Shown here piece by piece: positions 4,901 through 33,330 of a DNA stretch of 64,000 nt. The position numbers were made by a program, and so were the translations under genes. The DNA comes from Bacteroidia bacterium (GTDB taxonomy: Bacteria; Bacteroidota; Bacteroidia; B-17B0; Aurantibacillaceae): NCBI GenBank assembly GCA_021740825.1, contig JAIOZA010000005.1, forward strand, positions 1 to 64,000, given 5' to 3'. The notes beneath the pieces are model-generated. The model ran no database searches and had not been told where the DNA came from. It saw only the letters and a program-made list of their open reading frames with translations. The stretch's first letter is position 1. Every line of letters starts with the position of its first letter.

Positions 4901-6194
4901 GGGAGTAGCAGCGGTTATTAGCGCCAGTGGTGCTACCAGCTATCAATGGAACACAGGGGCAACTAGTTCATCTATTTCAGTTACGCCAACTATTGCAACA
5001 AATTATACGGTTACTGGAACTAATGCTGCAGGTTGTGCTAATACTAAAACGCTATCAGTATCTTTAAATCCACTACCTAATTTAATAGCCACATCTTCAA
5101 CTATTTGCGCAGGTTTGTCGGGAGTTTTATCTGCAAGTGGCGCAAATACGTATACTTGGAGTAATGGAGCTACCACTTCAACGGTTTCAGTAAACCCTGC
5201 TATTTCAACTAATTATACTGTAACTGGAGCTAGTAATTTAGGATGTGCAACCTCTAAAACATTAGCAATCATTGTTAATGCATTGCCTAATGTGTCATCA
5301 ACATCAGCAACTATTTGCGCTGGTGCTAGTGGAACGCTATCTGCAAGTGGAGCTTCCACGTATGTGTGGAGCACGGGAGCAACAGGAGTAGACTTAATTA
5401 TTAATCCTACAACGTCATCAAATTATACAGTTACAGGAACATCTGTAGATGGCTGTGTAAACAGTTCAACTGCTTCTATTTCTGTTGGAAATGCTCCATC
5501 AATATCAGTTAACTCTTCAACTATTTGTTCTGGTTCTTCGGCAACTTTATCAGCACTTGGAGTTACAACTTATACATGGAATACAAATTCTAATACTTCA
5601 AATATTGTGGTTAATCCTTCAAGCACTACCATTTATACGGTAACCGGAAATCTTGCGGGTTGTGCAATTGCAGCGGTTCAAACGGCAACAGTTAATGTAA
5701 ATTCTTTACCTGTTGTTTCCTTATCCTCCGTTTCAGTACCAATATGTGTTAACAGTGCTACTGTGGCATTATCTGGAAATCCTGCAGGAGGTGTGTTTTC
5801 TGGTACAGGAGTTTCAGGATCAATTTTTGACCCCGCTGTTTCTGGTGCTGGTGCATTTGTAGTGAGTTATGATTATACCGATTTGAATTCATGTACTGCA
5901 ACAGCTTCAAATACCATAAGCGTTAGTTTATGTACAAGCATTGAAGAACTAAACCCTACTTATGTTTTAATTTATCCGAATCCGGTTACAAATGAAATTA
6001 ATATTACCATTAATGCTGCTTTCAGTAACCAAACACAAATAGAATTATATGATGCAATTGGTAAATTGATAGTGACCGAAAATACAGTAAGTAATAATGC
6101 AGTTATAGATATGCATTTGCTATCTTCTGGTTTATATACCGTTAGATTAATTTCGAACGGTAATGCGGTATCTCAGCGAATTATAAAAAATTAA
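1920..6194 (+). CDS. Secreted subtilisin-like (S8) serine protease with PKD domain, Ig-like repeats and T9SS sorting domain
   Basis: A 1424-residue extracellular protease. A signal peptide (MKFITYMLLGLLSCIQINTNAQ) is followed by a propeptide-like region to about 150 and a subtilase domain at about 165-490. Its catalytic triad is visible: Asp198 in GIVDSGTDTDHPDL, His262 in NNHGSHVSG and Ser423 in SGTSMSSP. A beta-rich middle region without a clear family runs to about 900. A PKD domain follows at about 905-980, then four Ig-like repeats of about 70 residues (pattern ICxG...LSASG...Y.W..G....NYTVTG...GC) and one diverged unit. The end (YPNPVTNEINI ... LSSGLYTVRLI) is a type A T9SS sorting domain, so the protein should cross the outer membrane by T9SS and be attached to the surface or released. 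Its substrate is unknown. It stands alone between two terminators. Confidence 0.93.
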   Translation: MKFITYMLLGLLSCIQINTNAQGQLSKPLKARKQFVMPANLSANDYSTKTIVFKVKSQYRNITSTTKINNALLDQVLSYLGVNTFSKKFPKHNPPERAFNELGQAYADLSLIYELKYSNNIGMEDAVNQVLATNIMEFAEPHYIYKMHNFIPNDPAANSTSNTTGQNAFFSRIRAYAAWDLALGGSQGNSNVVIGIVDSGTDTDHPDLVTQFKNNTADPINGIDDDLDGYIDNYTGYDLAGADYNTVVGDNNTNIMGANNNHGSHVSGCASAATNNSIGVAGIGFNCKLLPVKCSADNDTRASGSGYIITGYEGITYAADHGAKIINCSWGGTSGGSFGQTVVDYATINKNCLVVASAGNSNLDEKNYPGSFNYVLSVAATNSTSDTKATFSTYNYDVDISTPGNNIYTTLYNNSYGLKSGTSMSSPITAGGAGLVQSKFNYTNALQIGQRLKQTSDFHYSTGTNITGPGNTGAAFQNKLGKGRMNLQRALTDPNTPSVVFANRVIVDNNDNAIVIGDSLFITGDFINYLSPTSNLTASITAVVGTAYVSTIDNNTSLGFINTLATANNNADPFKFKINTGTPDNALITFQVTLKDGTYTDKYFFDVIVNVDYVNIAINDVATTITSKGKIGYNADGQLQGLGFSYMGTDLLYEAGLMIGSSSSKVSDCFRGATAGASDADFQTSIKAYKVLPSTFSEFDVRGRFNDVPAVPTQSLLVTHNAYAWSTAGNRKYVIVEYSIKNTGSTALTNLYAGIAADWDIDATTSAQNKSDYVASKKMGYVYSTVAGGKFAGIKLLTNTAPAVCYNIDNTAGGGGGVDINDAANYYGTADKYTTLSTNRYQAGLTGTTGGDVIEVMSSGPFNIIAGDSVKVAFALIAGDNLIDITKSADSAQAHYALPVPTANFATAATKCVGSAISISDASTNSPTSYNWSFPGGSPATATTQSASVTYTAAGTYTITHTSTNASGTSVPVTQTISVSANPNITANSVSVCPGVAAVISASGATSYQWNTGATSSSISVTPTIATNYTVTGTNAAGCANTKTLSVSLNPLPNLIATSSTICAGLSGVLSASGANTYTWSNGATTSTVSVNPAISTNYTVTGASNLGCATSKTLAIIVNALPNVSSTSATICAGASGTLSASGASTYVWSTGATGVDLIINPTTSSNYTVTGTSVDGCVNSSTASISVGNAPSISVNSSTICSGSSATLSALGVTTYTWNTNSNTSNIVVNPSSTTIYTVTGNLAGCAIAAVQTATVNVNSLPVVSLSSVSVPICVNSATVALSGNPAGGVFSGTGVSGSIFDPAVSGAGAFVVSYDYTDLNSCTATASNTISVSLCTSIEELNPTYVLIYPNPVTNEINITINAAFSNQTQIELYDAIGKLIVTENTVSNNAVIDMHLLSSGLYTVRLISNGNAVSQRIIKN

Positions 6195-13694: not shown

Positions 13695-15425
13695 ATGAAA
13701 AAAATCTATTTAATGGGTTTAACTTCTTTTTTTGCTTTAGCAGCTATTGCTCAAACAACATTGAAAGTTAACAAACCTTTGCAAAGTGGCAAAAACGCTA
13801 TGATTAGCGAGTCAAAAATTAAAAAAGGGGCTTCAGCAGCTAAGGGCGGAGGTTCAAACTCTACAATGGCAATTGCTGCAAACATGGTTGTCAGTACTTC
13901 TTATACGGCTGGTTCTGTGCAAAACATTGACATGGTATTAACTTTAACAAATACTGATTCAGAATATGGTGATAAATTAGAAATTACTTTCCCGGCTGGT
14001 ATTACAGTTAACAGTACAACAAATACTCCAACTCTAGGACCAGATGATGGTGGAGCTTCATCTGATGGTCCTGAGGCATTCAATGGCATTACCGGTCAAA
14101 CAATATCTTGGGGTAATGATGATAACTATTATGGTGGTATTAGTACTTCAGGTGCTGCACCTGGTAGCTATCCAATTCAAATCAATATTACTGTGCCTGC
14201 TGGAACAACTGGTAACATTGTTTGTACATACAGTGTAAGTGGTGATGGCTTTGGAGCTGCTCCTGCTGATTACACTGGCACATTTAATATCGTTAATTCT
14301 GCTGTTCCAGCTGTAAATATGAAAACGATTTTTGTTCAACCCTATAATTTAGCTAGTTTATCAAACTGTAATTATGGTTTAGATACTTTAGTTGCTCAAA
14401 TTACTAATATTGGTTCAACAACTGAATCAAACATCAATGTTTCTTATAATGTTAATGGTGGTGCTGCAATGATGACTGTTGTTCCTGGTCCTTTAGCACC
14501 TGGCGACTCAGCTTTTGTTTTTTGGTTACCTGCATATGACTTTTCTGCAACTAATACTTATGATGTAAAAGCTTGGGTTGCTCAAGCAGCTGATATTAAC
14601 TTAGTAAATGATACAGCTTCTTTGTCATTTTCAAATAATGTATCAATAGCTTTAAGCACTACAAGTTACTCGAATGGTATTGAGGGAGCACAAGTTGCAG
14701 ATATTGCAGTACAAGGAACTGCTGCAAACTTTACAGGTTTATCTGGAGCTACTGTTCATTCTGGTGCTCAGGCATTATTTACTACTGTAAATACAACTAC
14801 AGTTACTGCTAATCAAGGTGTTTACGATGTATTTATTAGTTTACCTTGTATGGATGTTGTTAATGGTGAAACATATAGAATTTCTTATTGGAAAAAAGTA
14901 AACAATGCTCCTGCTACGCATCAAGGTTCAGGAGGTATTTTTTCTGGCTTATCTAATGACGCCACTACTATGACCGCTTTAAAACCATTTTCTCCAATCA
15001 CGCCAACTGGTGCAGGTGCAGTAAATTGGTCTAAAGATTCAGTTGATTATGTTGCTGTTGCTAATGAAACTCGTTATTTTGCAGTTGCAGGTCAAGGGAC
15101 AGTTAACAGTACTACCTCTTTCAATTTCCGTGTGGATGACATTAAAATTGCCAAAGTTGTTTCAGTTCCTACAGGTATTAAAACAAATTCAAATAATACA
15201 TTAGCAATATTCCCTAATCCAACAGCTGGTATTTTAAATATAAATGCTATTGAGGCTAACGGTACTATTGAAGTTTATAATGTAATTGGTGATAAAGTAT
15301 ATTCTAATTCTGTTGTAAAAGGAAACAATAGTATTGATTTATCTGGTTTAGCAAATGGAGCTTATTTCTTAAAAGTAAACTCTAATAACCAAATCATTAG
15401 TAAAAAAGTTGTGTTAAGCAAATAA
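13695..15425 (+). CDS. Secreted T9SS cargo protein with CARDB-like domain, function unknown
   Basis: A 576-residue exported protein. The signal peptide is MKKIYLMGLTSFFALAAIAQ. Residues about 50-210 form a Ser/Thr/Gly-rich beta domain. A CARDB-like adhesion domain follows at about 215-315 (pattern AQITNIGSTTESNINVSY...PLAPGDSAF). A beta-sandwich region at about 320-490 precedes a type A T9SS sorting domain (IFPNPTAGILNIN...GLANGAYFLKV). The domains suggest a surface or extracellular binding protein; no catalytic motif is visible. Codons are noticeably uniform and T-rich (GGT, GCT), which often marks highly expressed genes in such genomes. A very strong terminator follows. The transport route is well supported; the role is not known. 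Confidence 0.88.
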   Translation: MKKIYLMGLTSFFALAAIAQTTLKVNKPLQSGKNAMISESKIKKGASAAKGGGSNSTMAIAANMVVSTSYTAGSVQNIDMVLTLTNTDSEYGDKLEITFPAGITVNSTTNTPTLGPDDGGASSDGPEAFNGITGQTISWGNDDNYYGGISTSGAAPGSYPIQINITVPAGTTGNIVCTYSVSGDGFGAAPADYTGTFNIVNSAVPAVNMKTIFVQPYNLASLSNCNYGLDTLVAQITNIGSTTESNINVSYNVNGGAAMMTVVPGPLAPGDSAFVFWLPAYDFSATNTYDVKAWVAQAADINLVNDTASLSFSNNVSIALSTTSYSNGIEGAQVADIAVQGTAANFTGLSGATVHSGAQALFTTVNTTTVTANQGVYDVFISLPCMDVVNGETYRISYWKKVNNAPATHQGSGGIFSGLSNDATTMTALKPFSPITPTGAGAVNWSKDSVDYVAVANETRYFAVAGQGTVNSTTSFNFRVDDIKIAKVVSVPTGIKTNSNNTLAIFPNPTAGILNINAIEANGTIEVYNVIGDKVYSNSVVKGNNSIDLSGLANGAYFLKVNSNNQIISKKVVLSK

Positions 15426-15447: not shown

Positions 15448-15482
15448 AAAGGGGCTGCAACTTTGTTGCAGCCCCTTTTTTT
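15448..15482 (+). terminator. Strong intrinsic terminator after the CARDB-like T9SS cargo gene
   Basis: GGGGCTGCAAC (15451-15461), a TTT loop and GTTGCAGCCCC (15465-15475) form a perfect 11-bp GC-rich stem. It is extended by AAA/TTT and followed by a T run. It is the most stable hairpin I see in the window. Confidence 0.95.
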
Positions 15483-15609: not shown

Positions 15610-18600
15610 TTGTTATCAAATCTGAATCAGCGTAGTTACATATTTTGTTTGAGTAAAATACGTTTTAGCTATTTACTTATTTTTTTGGCATTCACCAATT
15701 ACTCTTATTTGTGTGCTCAAATAAAAAACGAAATTGAATTAAAAAAAGAAGCTGAAAAACTTTTTGAAGCCGAAGATTATACTTCTGCTTATAAATTATA
15801 TGCGCAACTAGTATCCTTGTATCCCAAAGATCCTAATTACAATTATAAGCTGGGTGTTTGTATGCTACTTACTGAACCGGATAAAAAGAAGCCTTATTCC
15901 TATTTACAAATTGCAGCAAATAGCAAGACAGATGCTCCAAAAGACGCCACATTTTATTTAGCTAAAACCTATCATGTTAATTATAAATTTGATGAAGCCA
16001 TAAAGCTTTATAACGAATATAAGCAAATTGGCAGTGCAGCATCTATTAAGAAATTCCAAGTAGATAGAGAAATTCAAGCATGTAAAAACGGTAAACGATT
16101 GCTTTCTAATTTTAAGGATTTAGTAGTTATGACAAAAAAGCTACTAAACGAGGCTGATTACTTTAAAGCATACGACATAAAAGATATTGGTGGGAAATTA
16201 TTAGTGAAGCCAGACGATTACAAATCAACTTATGATAAAAAGAAAAAAGATAAATCTGTAGTTTATCTTCCGAAAACTAATGACAGGCTTTATTATTCTA
16301 GTTATGGTGAAGGAGGAAATACTGGCAGAGATATTTATGTTGTAAATAAATTATCCGATGGAACTTGGAGCAAAGGTGAAATACTTCCAAATACTATTAA
16401 TTCGGAGTATGATGAAGATTATCCTTTTTTACATCCTAATGGAAAAACTCTTTACTTTAGTTCGAAAGGACATAATAGTATGGGTGGATATGATGTTTTT
16501 AAAACTACGTATGATGAATCAACTCAATCGTGGAGTGAACCCATTAATTTAGAATTTCCTATTAATTCGCCAGATGATGACATTTTATTTGTTACTGATT
16601 CGCTTGAAAAGACAGCGTTTTTTAGCACAGGTAGATACAGCCCCATTGGAAAATTAGATGTTTTAAAGATCAATACGGAGCGCGTACCAATGAATTTTGC
16701 TGTGCTAAAAGGTTCGGTGCTTAAAGAAGAAGCATCGCAAAGTTTGAAATCAAAAGTGACAGTTAAAAATATGTCTAACGGCGAGATTGTTGGTACTTTT
16801 CAAGCTCAAGATAATGGTGATTACAATATGCAATTACCTAATGGTGGAAAATTTATTTTTACAGTGGAAACGCCTGGTATTGAAACACAATCAAGCGAGG
16901 TACAAATACCGGTTGCGTATACTTTAAAACCATATAAGCAAGTTATTTCATATGATAATAAAATACTTAAAATTATTAATTATTTTGATGGTGCAATTGA
17001 TGATGAAAGTTACGCGATGATGCTTGACCTTATTGAGAAAAAAGCAAAATTAGAAGTTAATGAAAACGATCCTGCAATTGTAAGCGCGTCAAAAGACGAT
17101 TTAAAAAATAATGCTGCAACCCCAGATGCTGCCAAGAATTTAAAATCAGTAAACACTTCAAACCCTACCATAGTTGTAGATAAAAGTGATGCTGCCATTC
17201 GGAACAAAAATAAAAATGCTACAAATGAGCAGTTATTAGCTATAGCTAAATTAGATGCAATAGAGGCTACAGACGAAGCCAAAAAGTTAAAGCAAGAAGC
17301 TATTGATGCCTTTGGATTAGCAACTCAAAAAAATGCAGAGGCGATAGAAAAGCAAAAGCAAGCCGATCAAGCATTAGAAGTTGCAAATAATATTGTTGAT
17401 GTTGCTAAGAAAAATGAAGAATTTACAAAAGTAAGTCTGTTGCAAGAAGAAGCTAAAATGGCAACAGTGGTTTCAAATATTGCAACCAATATAGCTAAGA
17501 AGTTAGAAGTAGATGCTGCCATTCAGCAAAAAGAAGCTGACTTAACAAATCAATACATTAATCAATTAGGTGTTATTATAAAAAATAAAAATAATAAAGA
17601 AGCACTTGAAAAATTAGAAAATATACAAAAAGAGTTAGAGGATTTATCAAAACAAAAGAATCAATCAGATGAATTATATACATCTTTAAAAGCTGAGTCT
17701 GAATTAAAAAAACAAGAATTACAAAACTCCGAAAACAAAAGCAATAGTATTGCTGCTGAAGTCACAGCTTTAAAAAATGAATCAGAAAGTTTAGAAAACG
17801 ATTTTGCAAATGAATCAGATAAATCCATTAAAGAAAATATAGCTGCTCAAATACGAGAGTTGAAAATTGAAATTGACAGTAAGAATATCGATTTAGCAAC
17901 GAATAATCAAAAAATAGATAATCTCAAAAGTGAAGTACAGGGCTTAAGCCAAGAGTTGCAAATTGCAGCAAAAATATTAAATGAAAAAGCAGATGAACTT
18001 GCAATAAATAATGAGATTGGAAATACAGGATTTGAAAATAAGCAAAATATAAATACAGATGAATCTATTGCAAATACTTCTAAGTCTAATACAATTACAA
18101 ATGAAAGTAGTATTAGTGAACCAAACCTAACCTATCAAGAAGTTTTAAATAAGTATGATTCGAAAATAAATTCAAAAAATATTGATACTAATAATCCAGA
18201 AGAAATAAGCAACAAGAATGATATTTTAATGTCGTATAATCGAGATATTAATAGTATACTAACGATTGACAAAAATGCGCTAGCAAAAGCAAAAAATTCT
18301 GGCGAAAAGAAAGTTTTAACTGATGAAATAAAGAACTTAGAAAAAATAAAGTCCGAAAATGAAAAATCTATTACTTCAAATAATGCAATTATAAAACAAC
18401 TTACAGCAAATGCATTAGCTGATAATTCTTCAAACTTGCAAAATACCGCATCAACAAGTATTAATTCGAATAATTTAAATAAAAATGCAGATGGAAATGC
18501 AATCATAAATGATAATGACAGCAATAAACTAGCAGCATTAAATAATTTCAATAATTCATCTGAAAGCAAAACAGCAGATAAGCAAACGCCTACTACCACT

Positions 18601-21600
18601 GTTACAAAAAGTAGTAGCGAGGTTTTAAAATCAATTAATTTAAGCGCCGCAAACAACAAAAGTGCTTTCTTAGATGAGTTAAATAAATTAAAGAAAGAAC
18701 TAGCATCGAACGCCGATATTGCTTTGCAGGTTTTTAATTATAACCCATATTTAGAAAATTCTTCATCTGTACTCAAAAAAGTAGCGGACCAAAAATATCA
18801 GGACGCTAAACTAAATGAGCAGAACTTAAATAATCTAATTACTAAAACTGAAACTGCTATTAATATTAGTAGTGTTGCTAGTTCAGAGGAATTAATAAAT
18901 CAAGCTGAAAAATTAAGTAATACGGCTTTTGAGCAAAGAAGAGAATCTGCAACTAAAGCAGGTGCCGAAAAAGATGTTTTAGTAAAACAAGCTAATGAAA
19001 ATGAAAAATTAGCCACTATTAAAAAATTAGAAGCAGCAACTATTGCGCAAAAAGAAAATAAAGCACAATTTGAAATTAATACTGCGAATTTAACAGAACT
19101 GCAAAAATTAACAGGTAGTAAAACTAGTGATGAGATTTCGCAAGCAAATATGCTTTTTGATGAAGCTGCTATTAATTTTAAACAAGCTCAAAACATGCGA
19201 GCGGAGGCAGATTCTTACCCGTCAGGCGCAGCTAAATTAGGCGGATTAAGTAATGCTGAAGAAAAAGAAAATGAAGCTTTAACAAAACAGCAAAAAGCTA
19301 TTAATTCTTTATTAAAGACAAGCTCTAGCTATCAATTAAAACAATTAGATAAAGGAGATAATCCATCAGAGGCAATTACAAGTCTTAATAATGAAATTTT
19401 AAAAATAGCACAAGCACAGTTAGATGCATGTTTAGCATTGAGTAAAACCAACCAAAATGAATTTAAATTGCAGAATGATAAATTGATTAAAAATCAGGCA
19501 TTTAAAAATTCTAACAATAATCAATTGCGAGATTTAAAAACTAAAGCTGATAATTTAAATAGCGAGGCAAAAGCATTCATTGGGCAATCTTTAATTGCTA
19601 AAACGACTTCCGAAAAGGCAGATCTTTTATTAAAAGCAAATCAAAAAGAAATAGAGGCAATTAAGACTTTGGCAGAATCTACAAATTTAATGTTGGAAAA
19701 AACAGATGTTGTCGCTGCTAATAAAACTGAAGTTAATACTACTTCTAAAAATAATAATGTTCAAGCCACTGAAGGAAAAACAAATAATGAAAAGCAAAGT
19801 GGTAATCAAGAAAATCCTGAAAAGATTCAGAAAGAAACTGGAGTTATTACAAATTCTTTAACTACAAATAATGAAGACCAAACTAAGGAGAAAGCAGATG
19901 TCGGAAAAGTAGAAAAAGAAAATGGAACAATTACAAATACTGTAGTTGCAAATAATGAAAATCAAAATAAAGAAAATTCTGAAACATTGTCTGTTTTGGC
20001 AACTGAAAGTAGCACGATAAATGGTATTAGTGATGAAGTTGTTAAATTAAAAAGTAACTTAAAAAGTAATAGTAAGGTTGCAGATTTGGTAAAGTATAAC
20101 AACTATAAAACGAGTGATGCCATATCACTAAAAAATAATGCTGATGACAAAATAAATACTGCTTTAAATGAAGATAAACAAATTGAATTAGCATTAGAAA
20201 ATATTTCTGAATTAGCAGCAAAAACAGAAACGTCAAGTAATTTAGATCAAAACACTATTTCTTCTATACTTTTGGAAGCTGACAAGCTAAATGCAGATGC
20301 TGCTGCAATAAGAAAATCGGCTGCAGCAAAAAGTGGAACTGAAAGAGCTGAAGAAATAAGTAAAGCAATAAGTATAGAAGAATTGGCAGTAACAAAAAAA
20401 ATAGATGCGGCTAGCAAACAGCAACAATTAAATAGCGCCACATACGAAGCAAATAAGCAAAGTTTGCAAGAGTTAGCTGAAATGGCTAAAGGAAAAAATA
20501 GTTCAACTTTAAGCTCAGCCAATATGGTAATGAATGAAGCTCAACAGTTTTTTAATCAATCACAAAAAATAAGAGAAGAGGCAGATTCGTATCCAAATAA
20601 CGCAGCTAAACTTGGCGGCTACAGTAATGCTGAAGAAAAAGAATTTCAAGCATTATTTAAACAACAAGCACTATTAGATAGTTATAAAAAAGAGTTTCCA
20701 AATTATGTACCTAAAAAACAAAGCGTAGCATCCGAAAACAATGAGGTGTTATCAAAATTAAATGAAACTAAAGTTAGTTTAAATAATAATAATCAACTTC
20801 ATATTGATGGTTTAAATTTATTGGTTCAAGCAAATGAAAAAGAATACAAGAATCGTTTTATGTCGTTGCCTGAAAATTTAATCCCTGAGCAGTTAAACTT
20901 AAAAAAGCAAGCGCAGGAAAATTATAAAAATAACCAAGAAACACTATCACGAGCTAATCAAAGTACTGATTTAGCAGCTAAAACGAATTTACTGATTGAA
21001 GCAACTAAATCAGGTCAAGAAGCCATTAATTTATTAAATCAAATAACAGATTCTAATGCTGTTAGCGAAGATTCTTTAGGTGTTGCAGACGTAAATACCA
21101 ATAACAGCAATGAAAATAATAAGGCTTCTGAAAATGAGAATTTCAAAAACAAGGATAATCTTAATGCTGTAAGCACCAATACAACTGCTGCAGTTAGCGT
21201 TATAAAAAACGCAACTGAAACAGCAACCACTACTACAACCACAAAAATTATAACCTCAACAACTACTTCAAATTCCAATGCTATAACTGTTGCCGATAGT
21301 CCATCAAATGAAAAAGCAAATGTGCCAGTTGTCAATATTAAAATAGAAGGACTTGAGGTTAAAAATACCAATGCATATTCAGCTAATAATCCAATTCCTA
21401 TTGACGAAAAATTACCCGATGGCTTAGTATTTAAAGTTCAAATTGGCGCATTTAAAGCAGCATTGCCAAATAATACATTTAAAGGTTTAAGTCCGGTAAT
21501 TGCTCAAACAACTGCAAGTGGATATATAAGATATATGGCTGGTAATTTTAAACAATTTACAAGTGCTAATGCTGTAAAAAATGATTTGAGGAATCTTGGA

Positions 21601-22575
21601 TATTCAGATGCTTTTGTAGTTGCCTATCTTGATGGCAAACGAATTAATTTAAATGAAGCTACAGATAAAGCGAAAACTGCTGGACAAACTATTGATGTTA
21701 CTTCTAATGAAAGTGCTGGTTTAACAGGTAATGCAAATGTTCCAAAAAATACAACTGTAATTTCTAACAATACTACTGCAATAAATAATAATGCGGATAA
21801 TCAGCTCATAGAAATTACTGACGAATTAGAAAGAATGAATGGGTTGTTATTTACTGTTCAAATCGGTGTATACTCAAAGCAAGCAACACGAGGACAATTA
21901 TTTAATTTAAAGCCAATTTATACCGAGAAATTACCAAACGGCTTATATCGTTATACAGCAGGTATTTACAATCAAGCAAATAAATTATTAGATGATAAGC
22001 GTAAAGTAGTTGATTTAGGTGTTAAAGATGCCTTTGTATCTGCTTATTATAATTCTAAGCGTATTGCATTTGCTGAGGGACAAAAATTACAGCTAGAAAA
22101 TAGTAATTTAAAAATGGAAGTAGAAAATCCTATCATTTTCAATGGGACTGATAACGGTAAAATTACAGCGCCTGCTTCACTAACAGTAACTGCTAACAAT
22201 AATCAACCGGCTAACAACATGCCGCCAGCAATTGCTTTTTCAAATAGTGTATCCGTTGGACCTGCTCCTACAGCCGAGAATGGTGTCAAACTTGATGATG
22301 CGGGCATTTCATATAAAGTACAAATTGGGGCTTACAAAAATCAAGTACCAAACGATGTTGCCAACAAATTTTTAAATATAAAAACTTGGCCGGTTAAAAA
22401 TGTAGTAATTAATAATTTATATATATATACAATTGGTGGTTTTAATGCTTTTGTTTTTGCTAAAAAATTAAAAGATGAAGCTGTTTCTGTTGGTATTACA
22501 GATGCCTTTATAACTGTCTATAAAGATGGCAAAAAATTATATGGCTCAGAAGCATCGCAATATTTGTCGCAATAA
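15610..22575 (+). CDS. Giant TPR/PD40/coiled-coil protein with three C-terminal SPOR-like repeats
   Basis: A 2321-residue envelope protein. There is no ATG near the start: the frame opens after a TAG at 15601, and the usable starts are TTG 15610 and TTG 15649. The latter gives a clean signal peptide (SKIRFSYLLIFLAFTNYSYL, then CAQ), so I favour 15649. In order: TPR repeats (about 45-160), a PD40 beta-propeller part (about 215-360, YYSSYGEGG, LYFSSKGHNSMGGYD), a CRD-like beta sandwich (about 362-437), and some 1400 residues of Lys/Glu/Asn/Ala-rich coiled coil. The coiled coil contains a duplicated module. Three related units follow (about 1936-2017, 2076-2157, 2232-2317), each starting like VFKVQIGAFK and ending like DAFVVAYLDGKRI, resembling SPOR peptidoglycan-binding domains. 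The head resembles PorE-type proteins of T9SS, but SPOR-like units replace OmpA. A structural role at peptidoglycan is inferred. Confidence 0.85.
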   Translation: MLSNLNQRSYIFCLSKIRFSYLLIFLAFTNYSYLCAQIKNEIELKKEAEKLFEAEDYTSAYKLYAQLVSLYPKDPNYNYKLGVCMLLTEPDKKKPYSYLQIAANSKTDAPKDATFYLAKTYHVNYKFDEAIKLYNEYKQIGSAASIKKFQVDREIQACKNGKRLLSNFKDLVVMTKKLLNEADYFKAYDIKDIGGKLLVKPDDYKSTYDKKKKDKSVVYLPKTNDRLYYSSYGEGGNTGRDIYVVNKLSDGTWSKGEILPNTINSEYDEDYPFLHPNGKTLYFSSKGHNSMGGYDVFKTTYDESTQSWSEPINLEFPINSPDDDILFVTDSLEKTAFFSTGRYSPIGKLDVLKINTERVPMNFAVLKGSVLKEEASQSLKSKVTVKNMSNGEIVGTFQAQDNGDYNMQLPNGGKFIFTVETPGIETQSSEVQIPVAYTLKPYKQVISYDNKILKIINYFDGAIDDESYAMMLDLIEKKAKLEVNENDPAIVSASKDDLKNNAATPDAAKNLKSVNTSNPTIVVDKSDAAIRNKNKNATNEQLLAIAKLDAIEATDEAKKLKQEAIDAFGLATQKNAEAIEKQKQADQALEVANNIVDVAKKNEEFTKVSLLQEEAKMATVVSNIATNIAKKLEVDAAIQQKEADLTNQYINQLGVIIKNKNNKEALEKLENIQKELEDLSKQKNQSDELYTSLKAESELKKQELQNSENKSNSIAAEVTALKNESESLENDFANESDKSIKENIAAQIRELKIEIDSKNIDLATNNQKIDNLKSEVQGLSQELQIAAKILNEKADELAINNEIGNTGFENKQNINTDESIANTSKSNTITNESSISEPNLTYQEVLNKYDSKINSKNIDTNNPEEISNKNDILMSYNRDINSILTIDKNALAKAKNSGEKKVLTDEIKNLEKIKSENEKSITSNNAIIKQLTANALADNSSNLQNTASTSINSNNLNKNADGNAIINDNDSNKLAALNNFNNSSESKTADKQTPTTTVTKSSSEVLKSINLSAANNKSAFLDELNKLKKELASNADIALQVFNYNPYLENSSSVLKKVADQKYQDAKLNEQNLNNLITKTETAINISSVASSEELINQAEKLSNTAFEQRRESATKAGAEKDVLVKQANENEKLATIKKLEAATIAQKENKAQFEINTANLTELQKLTGSKTSDEISQANMLFDEAAINFKQAQNMRAEADSYPSGAAKLGGLSNAEEKENEALTKQQKAINSLLKTSSSYQLKQLDKGDNPSEAITSLNNEILKIAQAQLDACLALSKTNQNEFKLQNDKLIKNQAFKNSNNNQLRDLKTKADNLNSEAKAFIGQSLIAKTTSEKADLLLKANQKEIEAIKTLAESTNLMLEKTDVVAANKTEVNTTSKNNNVQATEGKTNNEKQSGNQENPEKIQKETGVITNSLTTNNEDQTKEKADVGKVEKENGTITNTVVANNENQNKENSETLSVLATESSTINGISDEVVKLKSNLKSNSKVADLVKYNNYKTSDAISLKNNADDKINTALNEDKQIELALENISELAAKTETSSNLDQNTISSILLEADKLNADAAAIRKSAAAKSGTERAEEISKAISIEELAVTKKIDAASKQQQLNSATYEANKQSLQELAEMAKGKNSSTLSSANMVMNEAQQFFNQSQKIREEADSYPNNAAKLGGYSNAEEKEFQALFKQQALLDSYKKEFPNYVPKKQSVASENNEVLSKLNETKVSLNNNNQLHIDGLNLLVQANEKEYKNRFMSLPENLIPEQLNLKKQAQENYKNNQETLSRANQSTDLAAKTNLLIEATKSGQEAINLLNQITDSNAVSEDSLGVADVNTNNSNENNKASENENFKNKDNLNAVSTNTTAAVSVIKNATETATTTTTTKIITSTTTSNSNAITVADSPSNEKANVPVVNIKIEGLEVKNTNAYSANNPIPIDEKLPDGLVFKVQIGAFKAALPNNTFKGLSPVIAQTTASGYIRYMAGNFKQFTSANAVKNDLRNLGYSDAFVVAYLDGKRINLNEATDKAKTAGQTIDVTSNESAGLTGNANVPKNTTVISNNTTAINNNADNQLIEITDELERMNGLLFTVQIGVYSKQATRGQLFNLKPIYTEKLPNGLYRYTAGIYNQANKLLDDKRKVVDLGVKDAFVSAYYNSKRIAFAEGQKLQLENSNLKMEVENPIIFNGTDNGKITAPASLTVTANNNQPANNMPPAIAFSNSVSVGPAPTAENGVKLDDAGISYKVQIGAYKNQVPNDVANKFLNIKTWPVKNVVINNLYIYTIGGFNAFVFAKKLKDEAVSVGITDAFITVYKDGKKLYGSEASQYLSQ

Positions 22576-22680: not shown

Positions 22681-22965
22681 ATGATTTATAACACTACTAA
22701 AACCCAAGAATTTGCAGAACTAGATGTTGTAACAGAAGATAGTAAGTTGTATACTATTACTTTGTATAATGACGATGTTAACACTTTTGAGTGGGTTATT
22801 GAATGTTTAACAAAATATTGCGGTCACGATTTTATTCAGGCTGAACAGTGCGCTACATTGGTTCATTATAAAGGTAAGTGTATTGTAAAATCGGGAAGTA
22901 TAGATAAATTAAAACCAATCTGCGAAGTCCTCTTAGAAAAAGGATTAAGTGCCGAAATTAATTAG
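22681..22965 (+). CDS. clpS: ATP-dependent Clp protease adaptor ClpS
   Basis: ClpS is a small cytoplasmic adaptor that hands N-degron substrates, and perhaps others, to the ClpAP/ClpCP protease. The 94-residue protein shows the core LYNDDVNTFEWVIECL, in which the Asn-Asp-Asp and Thr line the N-end-rule pocket. It also has the family pattern QAEQCATLVHYKGKC and the C-terminal strand CEVLLEKGLSAEI. Length and motifs match the family. It is followed by the M48 protease gene after 9 bases, suggesting co-transcription. Confidence 0.93.
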   Translation: MIYNTTKTQEFAELDVVTEDSKLYTITLYNDDVNTFEWVIECLTKYCGHDFIQAEQCATLVHYKGKCIVKSGSIDKLKPICEVLLEKGLSAEIN

Positions 22966-22974
22966 AGAATTTTT

Positions 22975-23778
22975 ATGAAGAAAATAATTTTTTGCTCAAT
23001 TGTATTAGGATGTTTAATTACTTCTTGTAATAAAAATGCTATTACAGGCCGACGTTCAATTAGTTTAATGCCCGAATCAGAATTGATCGGTATGAGCCTA
23101 ACTGAGTATGATAAATTTTTACTAGAGCATAAACCTTTGGATGCTAGTGACAGAAGAAGTATAATGGTAAAAAGTGTTGGAATTAAAATTCAGAAAGCAG
23201 TTGAAGAATATTATGCTAGTAAAGGTTTGAGTTCTCAGTTATCTGGCTTTAAATGGGATTTTAATGTGGTGGATGAAAATGTTGTAAATGCATGGTGCAT
23301 GCCTGGTGGAAAAGTTGTTGTTTATACGGGCTTATTACCAGTAACAAAAGATGAAACAAGTTTAGCAATAGTAATGGGTCATGAAATTGCACATGCAATT
23401 GCTTATCATGGTAATGAACGAATGAGCCAGGCATTGATAGTGCAATTTGGTGGGGCAGTTTTGGCAACGGCAATGCAGCAAAAACCTGCTGTAACCCAAG
23501 CTATTTTTCAGCAAGCATATGGTGTTACTACAACTTTAGGTGTTTTAAAATATAGCCGCACGCACGAAACAGAAGCTGATAAGATGGGTTTAGTATTTGC
23601 AGCCATGGGTGGTTATAATCCAGAAGCAGCCGTTGGATTTTGGGAACGAATGGCAGCATCTAGTAATGGAGCAAAACCAATGGAGTTATTAAGCACGCAT
23701 CCAAGCGATGCAAGGCGCATCGCTGATTTAAAAGCATTTATGCCTGAAGCAAAAAAATATTACAAAATAGGGAACTGA
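22975..23778 (+). CDS. M48-family zinc metalloprotease lipoprotein (LoiP/YcaL-like)
   Basis: A 267-residue periplasmic protease. A lipoprotein signal (MKKIIFCSIVLGCLITSC) is followed by the M48 N-terminal signature AITGRRSISLMPESE. The zinc site HEIAH has His136, Glu137 and His140; the third ligand is Glu200 in THETEADKMG. The C-terminal LSTHPSDARRIADLK is typical of the Oma1/LoiP group, which performs quality control of outer membrane or exported proteins. It lies 9 bases behind clpS, so both genes of this pair deal with proteolysis, one in the cytoplasm and one in the envelope. The zinc site is complete and no damage is seen. Confidence 0.92.
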   Translation: MKKIIFCSIVLGCLITSCNKNAITGRRSISLMPESELIGMSLTEYDKFLLEHKPLDASDRRSIMVKSVGIKIQKAVEEYYASKGLSSQLSGFKWDFNVVDENVVNAWCMPGGKVVVYTGLLPVTKDETSLAIVMGHEIAHAIAYHGNERMSQALIVQFGGAVLATAMQQKPAVTQAIFQQAYGVTTTLGVLKYSRTHETEADKMGLVFAAMGGYNPEAAVGFWERMAASSNGAKPMELLSTHPSDARRIADLKAFMPEAKKYYKIGN

Positions 23779-23824: not shown

Positions 23825-26110
23825 TTATTTTTTAGGAATAATTTTCAATTCAACTCGTCGGTTTTCTCGCATACCTTTAATGTTAGGTTTACCATTAGGC
23901 AATTTATTAGTGGCAATTGGCCTCGTTTTCCCGAAACCTTTTGATACTAAACGTGCTTTATTTATTCCTTTCTTTCTAATAGCATTAACTACTGCGTTCG
24001 CTCTTAATTTGGATAACTTTAAGTTTGCTGCTGCAGGTCCTTTACTATCGGTATGGCCAGAAACTTCAATTAATAATGCGGGATTTTCTATCATCAATTT
24101 TACAATCTTATCAATTTCAAAATTTGATTCTTTACGAAGTAGTGATTTATTAAAATCGAAGAAGATATTATTTAAAATAATTTTTGAACCTATTTCTATT
24201 TTTTCCAAAACCACTTCTTTTTGTATTGGCGTAGTATCATTTTGCGCAATATTTATATTTTCTGAATTAAATAAATATCCTTTTGCATCATAGGAAATAG
24301 TGTAGTTGTGATTTTTAATTAAGTTAAATAAAAATGAACCATTGGCACTAGTATTAAAAGTTTCTACTATAGTGCCAGATAAATTGTCTGTAATACTAAC
24401 AGTAGCACCTTGTATCAGCTGTTCGTCTTTATTTTTTATTTTACCTTTAAATTCTAAAGTTCCAAGTGTTAGTTTCTCGAGATTAATCATTTGAAGTAAA
24501 AATTCCTTTTCAATTTCTTGATAGGAAGCATTTGGAGGTATAACAAGTGAAGTTGAAGCAGTTTTATATCCATCTGCTTCAAAGGTAATGTTGTATGTTA
24601 TTCCCTTGCTACCAGGAGCTAAAATCATCATAAATTTCCCAGTAATTTCATTCGGTTTAATTTCCTGAATTAATTGATTACTTGCTGAGTCGGTTACAGT
24701 TATTCGAGCATTTGATGGAACGTTTGTGATACTATCAAATTTCAAAATACCTTTCAATAAAACTAAAGGCTGAGTAATTGATTGCTCAAAATCAATTCTG
24801 TAAATATCTTTATCTTTATTACTTCCAATTCTGCTTGAAGATAGATAACCGCGTTTGCCATCAACAGATTGAACATAAAACATATCATCATCTGGCGTAT
24901 TTATGTGCGCTCTTAAATTTTCGGGTTCGTTCCACTTTCCATCAGCAGATTTAGTTGATTTAAATATGTCAAATCCCCCCATATTTTTATGACCTTTTGA
25001 ACTAAAAAATAAAGTTACTCCATCAGGATGTATAAACGGAGCAGCTTCATCTGCTACTGTATTAATTGCTGAGCCTAAATTAGTAGGTAAACTCCATTGA
25101 CCATCAGGTAATTTTGTACAACTCCATATATCAAGACCGCCAAAACCGCCAATTTTCCTATTACTAACAAAATAAAGCGTTTTGCCATCTAATGAAATGC
25201 TAGCATAATTTTCACAAAAGGGTGAGTTGATTGCTGCACTAAGTGGTGATAAACTGCTCCAGGTATCGCCTATTAAATTACTGTAATAAATATCACCACC
25301 ATTAGATTCTTTGTATACAAATAACTGCCTGCCATCTGGCGATAACCCAATGCAAGTTTCGTTTAAAATAGTATTTATATTTATACCGATTGATTTTGCG
25401 GTGGTATAAGTACCATCATTTTTTTTGTAAGAAACATAAATATCCTCTAAAAACTGATCATCATCTGTTTTTTCTTCGCCAGTACCCCCACTTCTTCTTG
25501 ATGTAAAAATTAAAGTAGATTCATCTGCGGAAATTAAAGGGTTATAGTCTGGAAATATTGAATTTACCTTATCTCCCAAATTTGTAACAACAACTTTAGC
25601 AGTATCTTTAGTAAATTCATCTGCATTTATATTGATGTTTAACTCCTTTTCAATTTCAGTTGTTAGTTCACTATTTTTTTTTCCTACTAATTCTTTAAAT
25701 TTATTAAAGTAGAAATTAGATGCTGTAAAATTATAGTTTAAGCGGTATGCTTCTGCTAAGGAATAGAAAGCAAAATCAGAAGCTCTTTGCTCAGTTACAT
25801 CTTCTGGCAAGTAGTTGTGCGTAACTTTTTTTACTGCTTTTTCTAAATGATATACAGCTTTGTTTTTTTCAGACGATGATTGCAAGTAACATAAACCCAA
25901 TTTATAATTTATATTGGCTGTTGTAGAATCAATTTGGTAGGCTTCTTTAAAAGATCTTAAAGCAAGAACATAGTTGTTTTCTAGCATTAGATAATTTCCT
26001 TGAGTAAATTTTTCGCGGTATATTGCCTTACTTTTTTGACTATAACTTGAAGAGAAAATAAAAAGAAAAAAAAGTAATAAGCTGATTTGCTTTAAATTTT
26101 TGGCGGACAT
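23825..26110 (-). CDS. PorE-like TPR-PD40-CRD-OmpA protein
   Basis: The architecture is that of PorE, a T9SS component that anchors the machinery to peptidoglycan. It has a signal peptide (MSAKNLKQISLLLFFLFIFS, then SSYSQ), a TPR region (about 40-160) and a PD40 beta-propeller (about 190-430, with ISADESTLIFTSRR, LSPDGRQLFVYK, ISLDGKTLYFVSNR). Two carboxypeptidase-regulatory-like domains follow at about 455-640. The C-terminal OmpA domain carries the diaminopimelate-binding Asp and Arg in VSGHTDSKGP and MRENRRVELK. I prefer the ATG at 26110; an upstream in-frame ATG at 26140 would spoil the signal peptide. A paralogue lies upstream on the same strand. Several such paralogues often exist per genome, so whether this one is the T9SS subunit itself is open. 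Confidence 0.87.
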   Translation of the reverse strand: MSAKNLKQISLLLFFLFIFSSSYSQKSKAIYREKFTQGNYLMLENNYVLALRSFKEAYQIDSTTANINYKLGLCYLQSSSEKNKAVYHLEKAVKKVTHNYLPEDVTEQRASDFAFYSLAEAYRLNYNFTASNFYFNKFKELVGKKNSELTTEIEKELNININADEFTKDTAKVVVTNLGDKVNSIFPDYNPLISADESTLIFTSRRSGGTGEEKTDDDQFLEDIYVSYKKNDGTYTTAKSIGININTILNETCIGLSPDGRQLFVYKESNGGDIYYSNLIGDTWSSLSPLSAAINSPFCENYASISLDGKTLYFVSNRKIGGFGGLDIWSCTKLPDGQWSLPTNLGSAINTVADEAAPFIHPDGVTLFFSSKGHKNMGGFDIFKSTKSADGKWNEPENLRAHINTPDDDMFYVQSVDGKRGYLSSSRIGSNKDKDIYRIDFEQSITQPLVLLKGILKFDSITNVPSNARITVTDSASNQLIQEIKPNEITGKFMMILAPGSKGITYNITFEADGYKTASTSLVIPPNASYQEIEKEFLLQMINLEKLTLGTLEFKGKIKNKDEQLIQGATVSITDNLSGTIVETFNTSANGSFLFNLIKNHNYTISYDAKGYLFNSENINIAQNDTTPIQKEVVLEKIEIGSKIILNNIFFDFNKSLLRKESNFEIDKIVKLMIENPALLIEVSGHTDSKGPAAANLKLSKLRANAVVNAIRKKGINKARLVSKGFGKTRPIATNKLPNGKPNIKGMRENRRVELKIIPKK

Positions 26111-26589
26111 TTTATATGTCATATAATTTAAATTACCCACTTAATCGTAAGACTAATTATTATAATTATTGATTAAAAGTATCAAATATAATGTTTTTTG
26201 TAAGAGAAAAAAATAATGTTATAAACGAAAATAGAGGATTTAGAAAGTTGTGGCTAAATCAAAACTCATTACAGCTCTTGTACTTTAACTAAGCTCATTT
26301 AGCGGACTGATCTAGATAGAGAAATTTCTGAGCAATTTTTTAGATGAATACTGAAAATAAACATCCCGAAAATGGCATAACAAATTCTTCGAGCAATCCT
26401 ATTGTTTATGGTCACACTATTTCATAGTCGAATTGCTGCTCGGAATTATAGTCAAATAATACAATTATTTTTTTATTTAAAACGCCAATTACATTTTGAA
26501 CCAAGTAAAAAATAGGATAGTTTAGAATAATTATTTAGTAATTAGTAATATCGAATTAAATTTCATAAAAGAAACTAATTTATAAATAG
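26111..26589. other. Long intergenic region between the PorE-like paralogues
   Basis: I see no convincing gene here. A perfect TATATTTG (minus strand, 26183-26190) could be the -7 box of the downstream PorE-like gene, but no -33 box is at the right distance. An interrupted inverted repeat (CGAGCA at 26390 and TGCTCG at 26437) lies near the middle. The rest is AT-rich without homology to either paralogue that I can see. Confidence 0.5.
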
Positions 26590-28974
26590 CTAACGCTTAA
26601 AATCAATTTTCATTTCAACTCGTCTGTTTTTTTGACGGCCAATTTCTATTGTATTATCTGCAATGGGAACAGTTTGACCAAACCACTCTACAGTTATCAT
26701 ATCTTGCTTTACGCCTTTACTTATAAGATATTTTTTAATTGCTTTTGCTCGTTTTTCTGATAATAACAGGTTTTTCTCAGGATCCCCCTGGTTATCTGTA
26801 TGCCCTGACAATTTTAATATCCAATCAGATGCATGTTCTTGCATTAAAACTGCCAGTTCATTCAATGAAGGCAATGACGAGGCCTTAATAACTTCTTTAC
26901 CAGCGGCAAATTCCAAACTCGAAAAAGCAGTTTGTAAAATTTCAATTTCTTCAAGCTTCATTTCTGGAATAGGAGGACAACCCTGCAATTCCGCTAAACC
27001 TGAATTTGTTGGACACTTATCGTCTTTGTCTATAACTCCATCTTTATCTGTATCAGGCCAATTACAACCTTTTAATTCTTTTAGACCGGGAGTTGTAGGA
27101 CAATTGTCATCTTTATCTAGAACTCCATCTTTATCTGTATCAAGCCAAGTACAACCTTTCAACTCTTTTAAACCAGCAATTGTAGGGCAGTTATCGTCTT
27201 TATCAAGCACTCCGTCTTTATCCGTATCCAACCAAGGACAACCTTTATTTTCAACTATACCTGAAATGTCAGGACAAAGGTCATCTACATCTAAAACAGA
27301 ATCACCATCCTTATCCAGTGAACCTTTAATTTCAATTTTTCCAAATGTATTATTTTCAAGAGTAAGCATTTGCAATAAAAACTCTTTCTCAATTTCTTTA
27401 TACGAAGAGTTAGGTGGAATAACTAGCGAAATTTTAGAAGATTTAAACCCCTCTGCTTCGATGCTAATATTATAGGTTTTACCAGTACTTCCCGGATTCA
27501 AAATTATTGAATATTTACCAGTTAATTCATTGGGATTAATTACTTGAACCAATTCATTATTTGCAGAATCAATGACTGTTATTCGAGCATTTGAAGTTGT
27601 TTTATTAATACTATCAAATTTTAAAATCCCTTTTAATAAAACTAATGACTGAGTAATTGATTGCTCAAAATCAATTCTGTAAATATCTTTATCTTTTACA
27701 CTCCCAATTCTGCTTGATGATAGATACCCACGTTTGCCATCTACAGATTGAACATAAAATAAATCATCATCAGTAGTATTTATTGGTGCCCTTAAATTTT
27801 CGGGCTCGATCCACTTTCCATCACTAGTTTTGGTAGTTTTAAATACATCAAAGCTTCCCATACTTTTATGTCCATTTGAACTAAAAAATAACGTTACACC
27901 ATCCGCATGAATAAATGGCGCATCTTCATCAGCAGCTGTATTTATGTTAGGACCTAAATTTGTTGGCAAACTCCATTCACCAGTTGGCGATTTAACACTA
28001 CTCCATATATCACGACCTCCAAAACCACCAACCTTTCTATTGCTTACAAAATAAAGTGTATTACCATCTAAAGAAATACTAGCATGATTCTCAGTGGCTG
28101 GTGAGTTAATACTTGCGCCAAAAGGAGTTAAACTGCTCCAAGACTCTCCAATTAATTTACTGTAATAAATATCTCCACCATTAATGTCTTTATAAACAAA
28201 TAATTGTCTGCCATCTGGTGCCAATCCAACGCTAGCTTCGTTTAATATTGTATTTATATTTACTCCTATTGATTTTGCAGCAGTATACGAACCGTCATTT
28301 TTTTTATATGAAACGTAAATATCTTCTAAGAACTGATCGTCATCTGTTTTTTCTTCTCCCGTTCCTCCATTTCTTCTTGAAGTGAAAATTAATGTAGATT
28401 CATCTGCTGAAATAACTGGGTAATAATCGGGGAAGTGCGAATTAATAGTGTCGCTGAGGTTACTGATTTTTACATTAGCTGTATCTCTTGCATATACTTC
28501 AGCGTTTTTATTAATTATGAGTTGTTTGTCAATATCAGAGGCAAGTTCATTATTTCGTTTTCCTACTACTTCTTTAAATTTATTAAAATATAAATTAGAA
28601 GCTGTAAAATTATAGTTTAGCCTATATGCTAAGCCTAGTGAATAATAAGCAAAAATAGGAGCTTTTTTCTCAGTGACATCTTCGGGTGAATAATTGCGTA
28701 TTACATGTTTTACCGCTTTTTCCAAGTGATATACAGCTTTGTTTTTTTCTGTAGATGATTGTAAGTAACATAAACCTAATTTATAGTTTATATTAGCAGA
28801 TGTAGAATCAATTAAATATGCCTCTTTAAAAGATCTTAAAGCACGGACATAATTATTTTCTAACATGAGATAATTTCCTTGCGTAAATTTTTCTTTATAT
28901 GATAACTTTTTTGTTTGACAATAACTATGAGAGCGAAAACAAAACAAAATAAATAATAAATAAATTTGTTTCAT
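26590..28974 (-). CDS. PorE-like TPR-PD40-CRD protein with thrombospondin type 3 repeats and OmpA domain
   Basis: A 794-residue paralogue of the neighbour at 23825-26110; long stretches of the TPR and PD40 parts are nearly identical (for example TQGNYLMLENNYV, RNGGTGEEKTDDDQFLEDIY). The order is signal peptide, TPR (about 22-150), PD40 (about 180-415) and one CRD (about 440-545). Four thrombospondin type 3 calcium-binding units (about 551-666, repeating DTDKDGVLDKDDNCP) lead to the OmpA domain with SGHTDNQGD and KNRRVEMK. The second CRD of the neighbour is thus replaced by a calcium-stabilised stalk. It should be periplasmic and bound to peptidoglycan through OmpA. The gene is intact with its own upstream region. 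A T9SS-linked or general wall-anchoring role is inferred. Confidence 0.88.
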   Translation of the reverse strand: MKQIYLLFILFCFRSHSYCQTKKLSYKEKFTQGNYLMLENNYVRALRSFKEAYLIDSTSANINYKLGLCYLQSSTEKNKAVYHLEKAVKHVIRNYSPEDVTEKKAPIFAYYSLGLAYRLNYNFTASNLYFNKFKEVVGKRNNELASDIDKQLIINKNAEVYARDTANVKISNLSDTINSHFPDYYPVISADESTLIFTSRRNGGTGEEKTDDDQFLEDIYVSYKKNDGSYTAAKSIGVNINTILNEASVGLAPDGRQLFVYKDINGGDIYYSKLIGESWSSLTPFGASINSPATENHASISLDGNTLYFVSNRKVGGFGGRDIWSSVKSPTGEWSLPTNLGPNINTAADEDAPFIHADGVTLFFSSNGHKSMGSFDVFKTTKTSDGKWIEPENLRAPINTTDDDLFYVQSVDGKRGYLSSSRIGSVKDKDIYRIDFEQSITQSLVLLKGILKFDSINKTTSNARITVIDSANNELVQVINPNELTGKYSIILNPGSTGKTYNISIEAEGFKSSKISLVIPPNSSYKEIEKEFLLQMLTLENNTFGKIEIKGSLDKDGDSVLDVDDLCPDISGIVENKGCPWLDTDKDGVLDKDDNCPTIAGLKELKGCTWLDTDKDGVLDKDDNCPTTPGLKELKGCNWPDTDKDGVIDKDDKCPTNSGLAELQGCPPIPEMKLEEIEILQTAFSSLEFAAGKEVIKASSLPSLNELAVLMQEHASDWILKLSGHTDNQGDPEKNLLLSEKRAKAIKKYLISKGVKQDMITVEWFGQTVPIADNTIEIGRQKNRRVEMKIDFKR

Positions 28975-31839: not shown

Positions 31840-33330
31840 TTACTGATTATTATAGGCTCCGGCATCTATTGGTCCAATTGGAAAACTTCTTGGATTTCCC
31901 TTAATATCTGAAAGTATAATTGAATTTGCGGGAATTAAAGCATCTCCTATACCTTTTGCAGACGAACTAGTTTTGATACCAAAATTGTACGCTGCGGGAT
32001 CATTAAAAGCAGGATTTCCATTATAAACAATTGATGAGGTTGTAATTAACGTGTTAGTTATGGTAGAAGTTCGTAATAAAGAATTACTTATTTTACACAA
32101 TTGTCCTGAATTTGCTTTTATTTCTTGCTCAAATTCATTTCCCTGACTTCCTTCAATAATGCAGTTCGCAAAATAAAGGCTATCCATTGGGAATGTTTGA
32201 GAACCATCAAAATTATCAATATGCACGCAAGGTTGTCCGCCTCTGCCGCCATCTTGTGAAAAATAATTAGCGAAGGTAGTGTGCAAAAATGTATAATTTC
32301 CGCCCCAAGTTAAAGCAGCACAATACTCTTTACAATTTGTAATCACATTATTTGCTCCCCAAATGTCAAAATACTGCGAGTATAAACCCCATTTAGAGCA
32401 GTTTTTAATAATAGTATTCGTTAGTTTTAATTTTCGAGGTTGATTGAAACTTGATAAGATACTTGCTTGAATTCCAATAAAACTATTTTTTATAATGGCA
32501 TAATTAATATAATTGTCAGTATTTCCTTCATTTATCCAAATGCGATCCCATTGCCCTGGTAAATCTGCATAATCAGCTTCGCGCCTGTCTCCCTGAAAAA
32601 CCACTTCATTATTAAGTGAACCATTTACTTGGATAGTACCATATCTATAAACCCATAAGCCCGCATTTTGATGAAAGTAAACTTGAACACCAGGATTTAT
32701 AATCAATTTTTGTAATGAATCTACAACCAACCAACCATATATAACATGCGGTCGGTTATCGTCTTGTTGACCTAAAGCGCCTCCCCCCCAATTAACAGTT
32801 ATGCCAGTTGTGACGCTTGAAACAGTGGAATAAGGTAAAAATCCGTTTTTATATTGAATGGCTTTATTTGGCAAATGATAATGTGCATTTTGCCCCCAAG
32901 CCTCAAGTGTAACGCTGAGTTGGTTGCCATTAACATCAAATAAAATTTTATCTTGAATAATTAACGGACTTAGTGCAATATTTGTTGGATTGACATTAAC
33001 CTGAACAAAAATGTAAATACTGTCATTAGCTAAAATTTCAATATCTGTTACTTCTTTACCAGGAACTCCATCCACATTTAAAAAAAAACTAGATGATGCG
33101 CCTTTCTCCAAACGAATTGATGAAATATTAATTTTTTGATTATTATTATTTATAACTCTAATATTTCTGGTAGTTGAGCCAATAGTTGTAAAAACAGTGT
33201 CAAATAAAATAGAATCTTGAGAGAATGCGATGGTTGCAGAAGAGTCTGTGAGTAATTTATCTTTTTTACAAGAGATAAAACTAATTGATAAACAAATAGT
33301 TATAATTAAAAAAGTACTAAAACGATTCAT
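31840..33330 (-). CDS. Lipoprotein with right-handed beta-helix region
   Basis: A 496-residue surface or periplasmic lipoprotein with signal MNRFSTFLIITICLSISFISC. An N-terminal Ig-like domain (about 35-150; DSILFDTVFTTIGSTTRNI) resembles the choice-of-anchor type found in Bacteroidota. From about 190 onward a beta-helix-like pattern appears, with repeated short strands ending in Asn (NYAIIKNSFIGI, LTNTIIKNC, NNVITNCKEY). No active-site set of a known polysaccharide lyase is visible. Similar genes are widespread in the phylum but unassigned. A TAAATTTG box ends four bases before the ATG (33335-33342), hinting at a leaderless transcript; its -33 box is not clear. Confidence 0.75.
   Translation of the reverse strand: MNRFSTFLIITICLSISFISCKKDKLLTDSSATIAFSQDSILFDTVFTTIGSTTRNIRVINNNNQKINISSIRLEKGASSSFFLNVDGVPGKEVTDIEILANDSIYIFVQVNVNPTNIALSPLIIQDKILFDVNGNQLSVTLEAWGQNAHYHLPNKAIQYKNGFLPYSTVSSVTTGITVNWGGGALGQQDDNRPHVIYGWLVVDSLQKLIINPGVQVYFHQNAGLWVYRYGTIQVNGSLNNEVVFQGDRREADYADLPGQWDRIWINEGNTDNYINYAIIKNSFIGIQASILSSFNQPRKLKLTNTIIKNCSKWGLYSQYFDIWGANNVITNCKEYCAALTWGGNYTFLHTTFANYFSQDGGRGGQPCVHIDNFDGSQTFPMDSLYFANCIIEGSQGNEFEQEIKANSGQLCKISNSLLRTSTITNTLITTSSIVYNGNPAFNDPAAYNFGIKTSSSAKGIGDALIPANSIILSDIKGNPRSFPIGPIDAGAYNNQ

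Follow-up and report, generated by a model that had tools for sequence, protein, structure and literature searches.

A giant Bacteroidota envelope protein with a PorE/CHU_0125-type head and three SPOR domains

What is the very large protein encoded at this locus, and what could it attach to? The 64-kb stretch of DNA analysed here (the window) was earlier described from its letters alone. This sequence-only reading saw one giant open frame with a TPR/PD40/CRD head and three C-terminal units. That description is confirmed, and the coordinates given for the frame are exact:

15448..15478, + strand, strong intrinsic-terminator-like hairpin with a 14 bp stem and T tail (sequence)
15610..22575, + strand, giant protein, a single open frame of 2321 aa with a TTG start (ortholog alignment)
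15610..15717, + strand, signal peptide, aa 1-36, by inspection of the signal peptidase I type

The TTG start is supported because orthologs from the same genus align from their first residues. The hairpin sits between an upstream T9SS type A CTD gene and the giant. Read by inspection, the protein is probably Sec-exported and not a lipoprotein. Its Sec signal peptide has no lipobox Cys, nor do those of the orthologs that were inspected, which end in ..SYSQ or ..NAQ. It must be considered whether such a long frame is an assembly artefact or a chimera. We reject this because GC content is continuous across the giant gene with no break, no tandem DNA array was found in it, and close relatives (tail identity 69-77%) have the frame uninterrupted. 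A recent fusion is rejected too, given the wide conservation and the single head clade described below.

At the C-terminal end are three units:

21421..21645, + strand, SPOR unit 1, aa 1938-2012, glycan positions Q, A, F and R kept (profile, AF2, Foldseek, alignment)
21841..22065, + strand, SPOR unit 2, aa 2078-2152, Q and R kept (AF2 model, alignment)
22303..22539, + strand, SPOR unit 3, aa 2232-2310, basic-patch R replaced by I/V (AF2 model, alignment)

These three units are genuine SPOR domains by profile, by a profile match in the PDB, by predicted fold and by Foldseek. Aligned in pairs with one another they score 98-121, whereas none of 500 shuffles exceeds 52. PF05036 matches 27 of 27 ortholog tails (all E <= 0.01, best 1e-16). 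The giant's own tail scores 22.0 bits, above the gathering cut-off of 21, and the full-length giant only 13.3 bits. A tail profile run against PDB sequences finds the CwlC SPOR (E 2e-5). CwlC was also the only credible hit when the PDB was searched with a unit profile; matches to designed repeats and a lipoprotein were taken as chance. The AF2 tail model (mean pLDDT 80) consists of units with a beta-alpha-beta-beta-alpha-beta (RNP) fold. Its top Foldseek match is the CwlC SPOR (prob 1.00, TMt 0.73). Also matched are RlpA SPOR, in its free form (prob 0.94) and in complex with denuded glycan (0.89), and, lower down, FtsN and DedD; the E-values are modest, 0.0086 at best, as a single unit makes up little of the model. 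A viral structure library returned nothing useful except phage SPOR-like proteins. Profile search and structure prediction thus bear out the earlier description of the units as SPOR-like. The claim that a triple SPOR end replaces OmpA also stands, as profile scans find no OmpA domain in the giant or in five distant orthologs.

The ligands of SPOR domains are bare glycan strands, enriched at the septum, and the specificity of the domains for denuded glycans has been described as strict (PMC6895207). In RlpA the glycan contacts are Q270, A273 and F274 plus a basic patch of R302, R309 and R311 (PMC6895207). We counted the equivalent residues in 89 three-unit proteins, drawn from two collections that share some contigs. 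The correspondence to RlpA is our own and uses the conserved QxGxF and RxxxG motifs. Unit 1 has the Q, the A and the F in 89/89 and the R309-equivalent R in 87/89. Unit 2 keeps the Q (89/89) and the R (86/89), while its A position is mostly V and its F position is Y or F. In unit 3 the Q is present in 75/89 and I or V takes the place of the R309-equivalent R. The R311 position is not basic. Of the three RlpA arginines, units 1 and 2 keep a single one and unit 3 keeps none. Because the key Q and one basic-patch R are retained, denuded-glycan binding by units 1 and 2 is plausible from the alignment.

The PF05036 proteins FtsN, DamX, DedD, RlpA and CwlC share the SPOR fold and most of the glycan-contact residues with units 1 and 2. 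Known SPOR proteins are much smaller, usually with one or two SPOR domains, and to our knowledge none of them has the giant's head or middle. The source genome holds another protein with the same SPOR subtype and three C-terminal units (L005:1-1761, G000:C52). It appears to be an outer-membrane-barrel and TSP3-like protein, so its head looks like a membrane barrel (read from sequence) where the giant has TPR, PD40 and CRD. It would be another case of SPOR at a place where one would expect OmpA. A 316-aa SPOR protein of the giant's subtype (L004:471-2424, G000:C33) adjoins a gene that by eye is PorP/SprF-like.

The head is made of three parts:

15730..16104, + strand, TPR domain, aa ~41-165 (profile, AF2, Foldseek to CHIP TPR with TMt 0.73)
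16123..16683, + strand, PD40 beta-propeller-like region, aa ~172-358, shorter than in PorE (profiles, AF2)
16696..16980, + strand, CRD-like beta-sandwich, aa ~363-457 (profile, AF2, Foldseek to CnaB fold with TMt 0.60)

A profile scan places PD40 above its Pfam cut-off and TPR beneath its own. The AF2 head model (aa 37-805, 30 orthologs, mean pLDDT 82) has TPR helical hairpins, then a beta domain of ~185 residues at aa ~172-355, then an eight-stranded CRD-like sandwich; the TPR and CRD parts are well modelled. Foldseek matches were allotted to parts of the model by the fold and length of the matches, which gives CHIP TPR for the first part and CnaB domains for the last. The beta region has no convincing PDB match by Foldseek, where helical and weak matches dominate. 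The propeller of PorE is ~267 aa with five predicted blades (PMC5053529). The giant's region is about one third shorter, so its propeller is probably shortened or atypical.

Is the giant a PorE? The PorE-family profile (NCBIfam NF052230) matches aa 224-432 at 86.5 bits (E 1e-24), far below the family cut-off of 600 bits. PorE (PG1058) has the same order of TPR, PD40 propeller and CRD in its head. Both proteins are exported to the periplasm, and both end in a peptidoglycan-binding type of domain. However, PorE is a T9SS outer-membrane lipoprotein with an OmpA end, whereas the giant has no lipobox (by inspection), a shorter propeller region, no OmpA, a middle of ~1450 aa followed by three SPOR units, and a head clade of its own. 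PorE has been placed on the periplasmic face of the outer membrane (PMC5053529). In P. gingivalis it is predicted to be a lipoprotein (PMC5053529), and the F. johnsoniae homologs are without a lipid signal (PMC7192894). Its OmpA end has been crystallised with a peptidoglycan fragment (PMC5053529, PMC7192894). The CHU_0125 family (NF053607) shares the TPR and PD40 head too, but CHU_0125 is 656 aa and has an OmpA end. Its loss gives leaky cells, a weakened outer membrane and six-fold more vesicles (PMC5891637). NF053607 is the best-scoring named family for the heads of some orthologs, yet two giant orthologs reach only 83 and 97 bits against its cut-off of 620.

A maximum likelihood tree built from 61 heads puts all 29 heads of giants into a single clade (100/100), separate from that of PorE. 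The head of the giants thus appears to have one origin. The genome carries 25 PorE-profile matches, of which G000:C22 (468 bits) and G000:C15 (421 bits) are best, both outside the window. G000:C22 groups with the other top PorE matches in the tree. We place the giant outside the PorE family, as a SPOR protein with a PorE/CHU_0125-type head. Of the PorE-type head that was first proposed, the domain order survives, but the beta region is shorter and the clade is separate. Two genes downstream had also been called true PorE-like proteins:

23825-26140 and 26590-28974, - strand, two adjacent TPR-PD40-OmpA proteins, mutual recent duplicates (profiles, head tree)

This does not hold. They score far under the PorE and CHU_0125 equivalog cut-offs, with NF053607 the best-scoring named family for both, and form a separate recent duplicate pair outside the PorE clade. 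The genome has better PorE matches at other loci.

Between head and tail is a middle of ~1400-1450 aa:

17224..17982, + strand, long-helix region, aa ~539-791 (AF2 model)
18901..19311, + strand, helical module copy 1, aa 1098-1234 (repeat analysis)
19321..19692, + strand, helical module copy 2, aa 1238-1361 (repeat analysis)
20275..20685, + strand, helical module copy 3, aa 1556-1692, in the duplicated block (repeat analysis)
20710..21054, + strand, helical module copy 4, aa 1701-1815 (repeat analysis)

The middle had been read as a coiled coil of about 1400 residues that forms a rod long enough to span the periplasm. It is indeed long and mostly helical, but it is not uniform. In the AF2 model the long-helix region holds five helices, four of them 50-61 residues in length and the fifth 18. 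The four copies of a ~130-aa helical module make up a duplicated block (37% identity, E 2e-32), and linkers of low complexity, rich in N, S and T, lie between the long helices and the module copies. A single long coiled coil is rejected on these grounds. Across orthologs the middle ranges from 963 to 2091 residues (CV 0.19), so a fixed-length molecular ruler is rejected as well. Since the middle is modular and so variable in length, a rigid rod of set length that spans the periplasm is not supported. The middle is better described as modular and probably partly flexible.

The layout is conserved. The first set has 31 proteins: the giant, 28 more full-length orthologs from 15 families, and two (L050, L052) with the head missing or in a separate frame. 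All 31 have exactly three SPOR units, and the 28 other full-length orthologs all have the head as well. A second collection has 80 loci on named genome contigs, nearly all Bacteroidota MAGs, and of its 66 complete frames, 57 combine the head with exactly three units. The remaining nine are four with two units, one with four, one headless with three, and three that are unrelated. The layout is no quirk of one genome, because head and triple SPOR are kept across the 15 families and in these 57 frames. We regard the architecture of the giant as firm.

The giant is not everywhere, though. The profile match table places it in 27 of 70 sampled genomes of the class (mostly one genome per family), versus strong full matches in only two of 118 genomes drawn phylum-wide, the source genome included. 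On these counts the giant is frequent in certain families and missing from others. Because many families in the class do without it, any role is lineage-specific or replaceable. No Pfam or NCBIfam family model covers the whole protein. A literature search with most subscription literature and preprints outside its reach found no paper with this layout, and the earlier reading likewise knew of no described protein that has it.

Two genes follow directly downstream:

22681..22965, + strand, clpS, conserved downstream neighbour (40/70 non-redundant loci with enough downstream sequence)
22975..23778, + strand, M48 metalloprotease, BepA/LoiP-like putative lipoprotein with lipobox ITSC by inspection (profiles; neighbour count)

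The M48 protease gene is downstream of the giant in 32/70 such loci, and plsY is upstream in 21/79 loci. Distant families show the gene order tpiA-prmA-(~1500 aa protein)-plsY-giant-M48-NfeD-FloA, as seen with a 150-aa cut-off for which clpS is too short. ClpS is a cytosolic adaptor, so its linkage is weak functional evidence. The upstream ~1500-aa protein is found in 62/70 class genomes, and its association with the giant (p 0.02) ignores relatedness, so it is a weak candidate for a functional partner. This protein has a signal peptide and 57% mean column identity over six families (L063:1637-6205 (+), L061:12776-17284 (-) and, in the source genome, G000:C30:7588-12057). The one member scanned has no Pfam or NCBIfam match.

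The window also encodes three T9SS cargo proteins with a CTD, among them a subtilase/PKD protein and another that has Kelch repeats, as well as a T9SS plug-domain protein (1920-6194, 13695-15425, 44730-45935, 56803-58134). A glycoside hydrolase family 3 fused to a beta-lactamase-like domain is at 41685-44630 (-), and a 496-aa frame at 31840-33330 (-) has no Pfam match at E <= 1e-4.

What could such a protein do? The export signal (read by inspection), the folds, the conserved architecture and the retained contact residues come directly from computation. From them we infer a function, which covers partner binding by the head, glycan binding, a septal location and a physiological role. We argue that the giant is most likely a soluble periplasmic tether between outer-membrane-side partners and the amidase-processed wall, possibly at the division site, and we give this reading an even chance. 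The head, which is of the same type as those of PorE and CHU_0125, both outer-membrane-associated, would engage a partner on the outer-membrane side. The long, modular and partly flexible helical middle would give reach. The tail would bind glycan strands stripped of stem peptides through its three SPOR domains, chiefly the first two. Strands of this kind are concentrated at sites of septum splitting by amidases, so the link between outer membrane and wall would be made at or near the division site, and the tether may help the outer membrane follow the constricting wall. In its favour, PorE and CHU_0125, the two characterised proteins with this head, are both outer-membrane associated. Against it, one of three RlpA arginines is conserved and none in unit 3, and the head is without a lipid anchor or known partner. 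The neighbours clpS, M48 and sometimes plsY do not point to division. The earlier proposal of a spacer or anchor from outer-membrane machinery to the wall survives as far as the SPOR ends and the contact residues of units 1 and 2 carry it, but a specific link to T9SS is not supported.

One can imagine instead that the giant serves T9SS or gliding as an accessory, with a PorE-like scaffold holding the translocon or track to the wall by SPOR and not OmpA. Its head is in the PorE superfamily, the window has T9SS cargo genes and a plug-domain gene, and all 27 giant-bearing genomes have SprA, GldL and full-length GldJ. However, SprA is in 68 and GldL in 69 of the 70 sampled class genomes. Since both are near universal in the sample, their co-occurrence with the giant is uninformative (p 0.52 and p 1.0), and SprA is present even in 41 of the 43 genomes that lack the giant. 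Full-length GldJ does differ (27/27 giant-bearing versus 29/43 other genomes, p 0.0005), but this statistic ignores relatedness and is confounded by lineage. Co-occurrence is thus rejected as an argument for T9SS membership. The head is outside the PorE clade, better PorE matches exist in the genome, and the terminator-like hairpin parts the giant from the upstream cargo gene. A T9SS role is possible but not supported, and we consider this accessory unlikely.

We consider it similarly unlikely that the giant is a general tether of outer membrane to wall along the whole cell, with SPOR as a multivalent, low-specificity peptidoglycan contact and not a septal targeting domain. This would fit the role of CHU_0125, with the same kind of head, in outer-membrane integrity (PMC5891637), the incomplete set of glycan-contact arginines, and the other SPOR-ended envelope proteins in the source genome. 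It fits poorly with the strict specificity reported for SPOR (PMC6895207) and with the almost invariant Q/A/F/R of unit 1. It is more improbable still that the units are diverged SPOR folds that bind protein or another glycan, so that the giant is no peptidoglycan tether but, for example, an M48-protease/outer-membrane-biogenesis assembly scaffold. The M48 gene in 32/70 loci and the lack of a contact arginine in unit 3 could be read this way, but units 1 and 2 retain the glycan-contact set, and the commonest neighbour, clpS, is cytosolic, which suggests plain gene-order conservation.

A bolder form of the soluble tether would make the giant a dedicated septal tether of Bacteroidota, in which the triple SPOR couples the outer membrane to amidase-processed peptidoglycan at the division site and does part of the job of Tol-Pal elsewhere in Gram-negatives. 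This we hold to be doubtful. In any case, there is an orthologous family of envelope proteins of ~1700-3000 residues across many families of one Bacteroidota class. It means that a PorE/CHU_0125-type head can be joined to SPOR in place of OmpA. SPOR instead of OmpA implies a different wall target, the bare glycan and not the stem peptide. The giant is a testable handle on how the outer membrane is attached to the wall in these bacteria, possibly during division.
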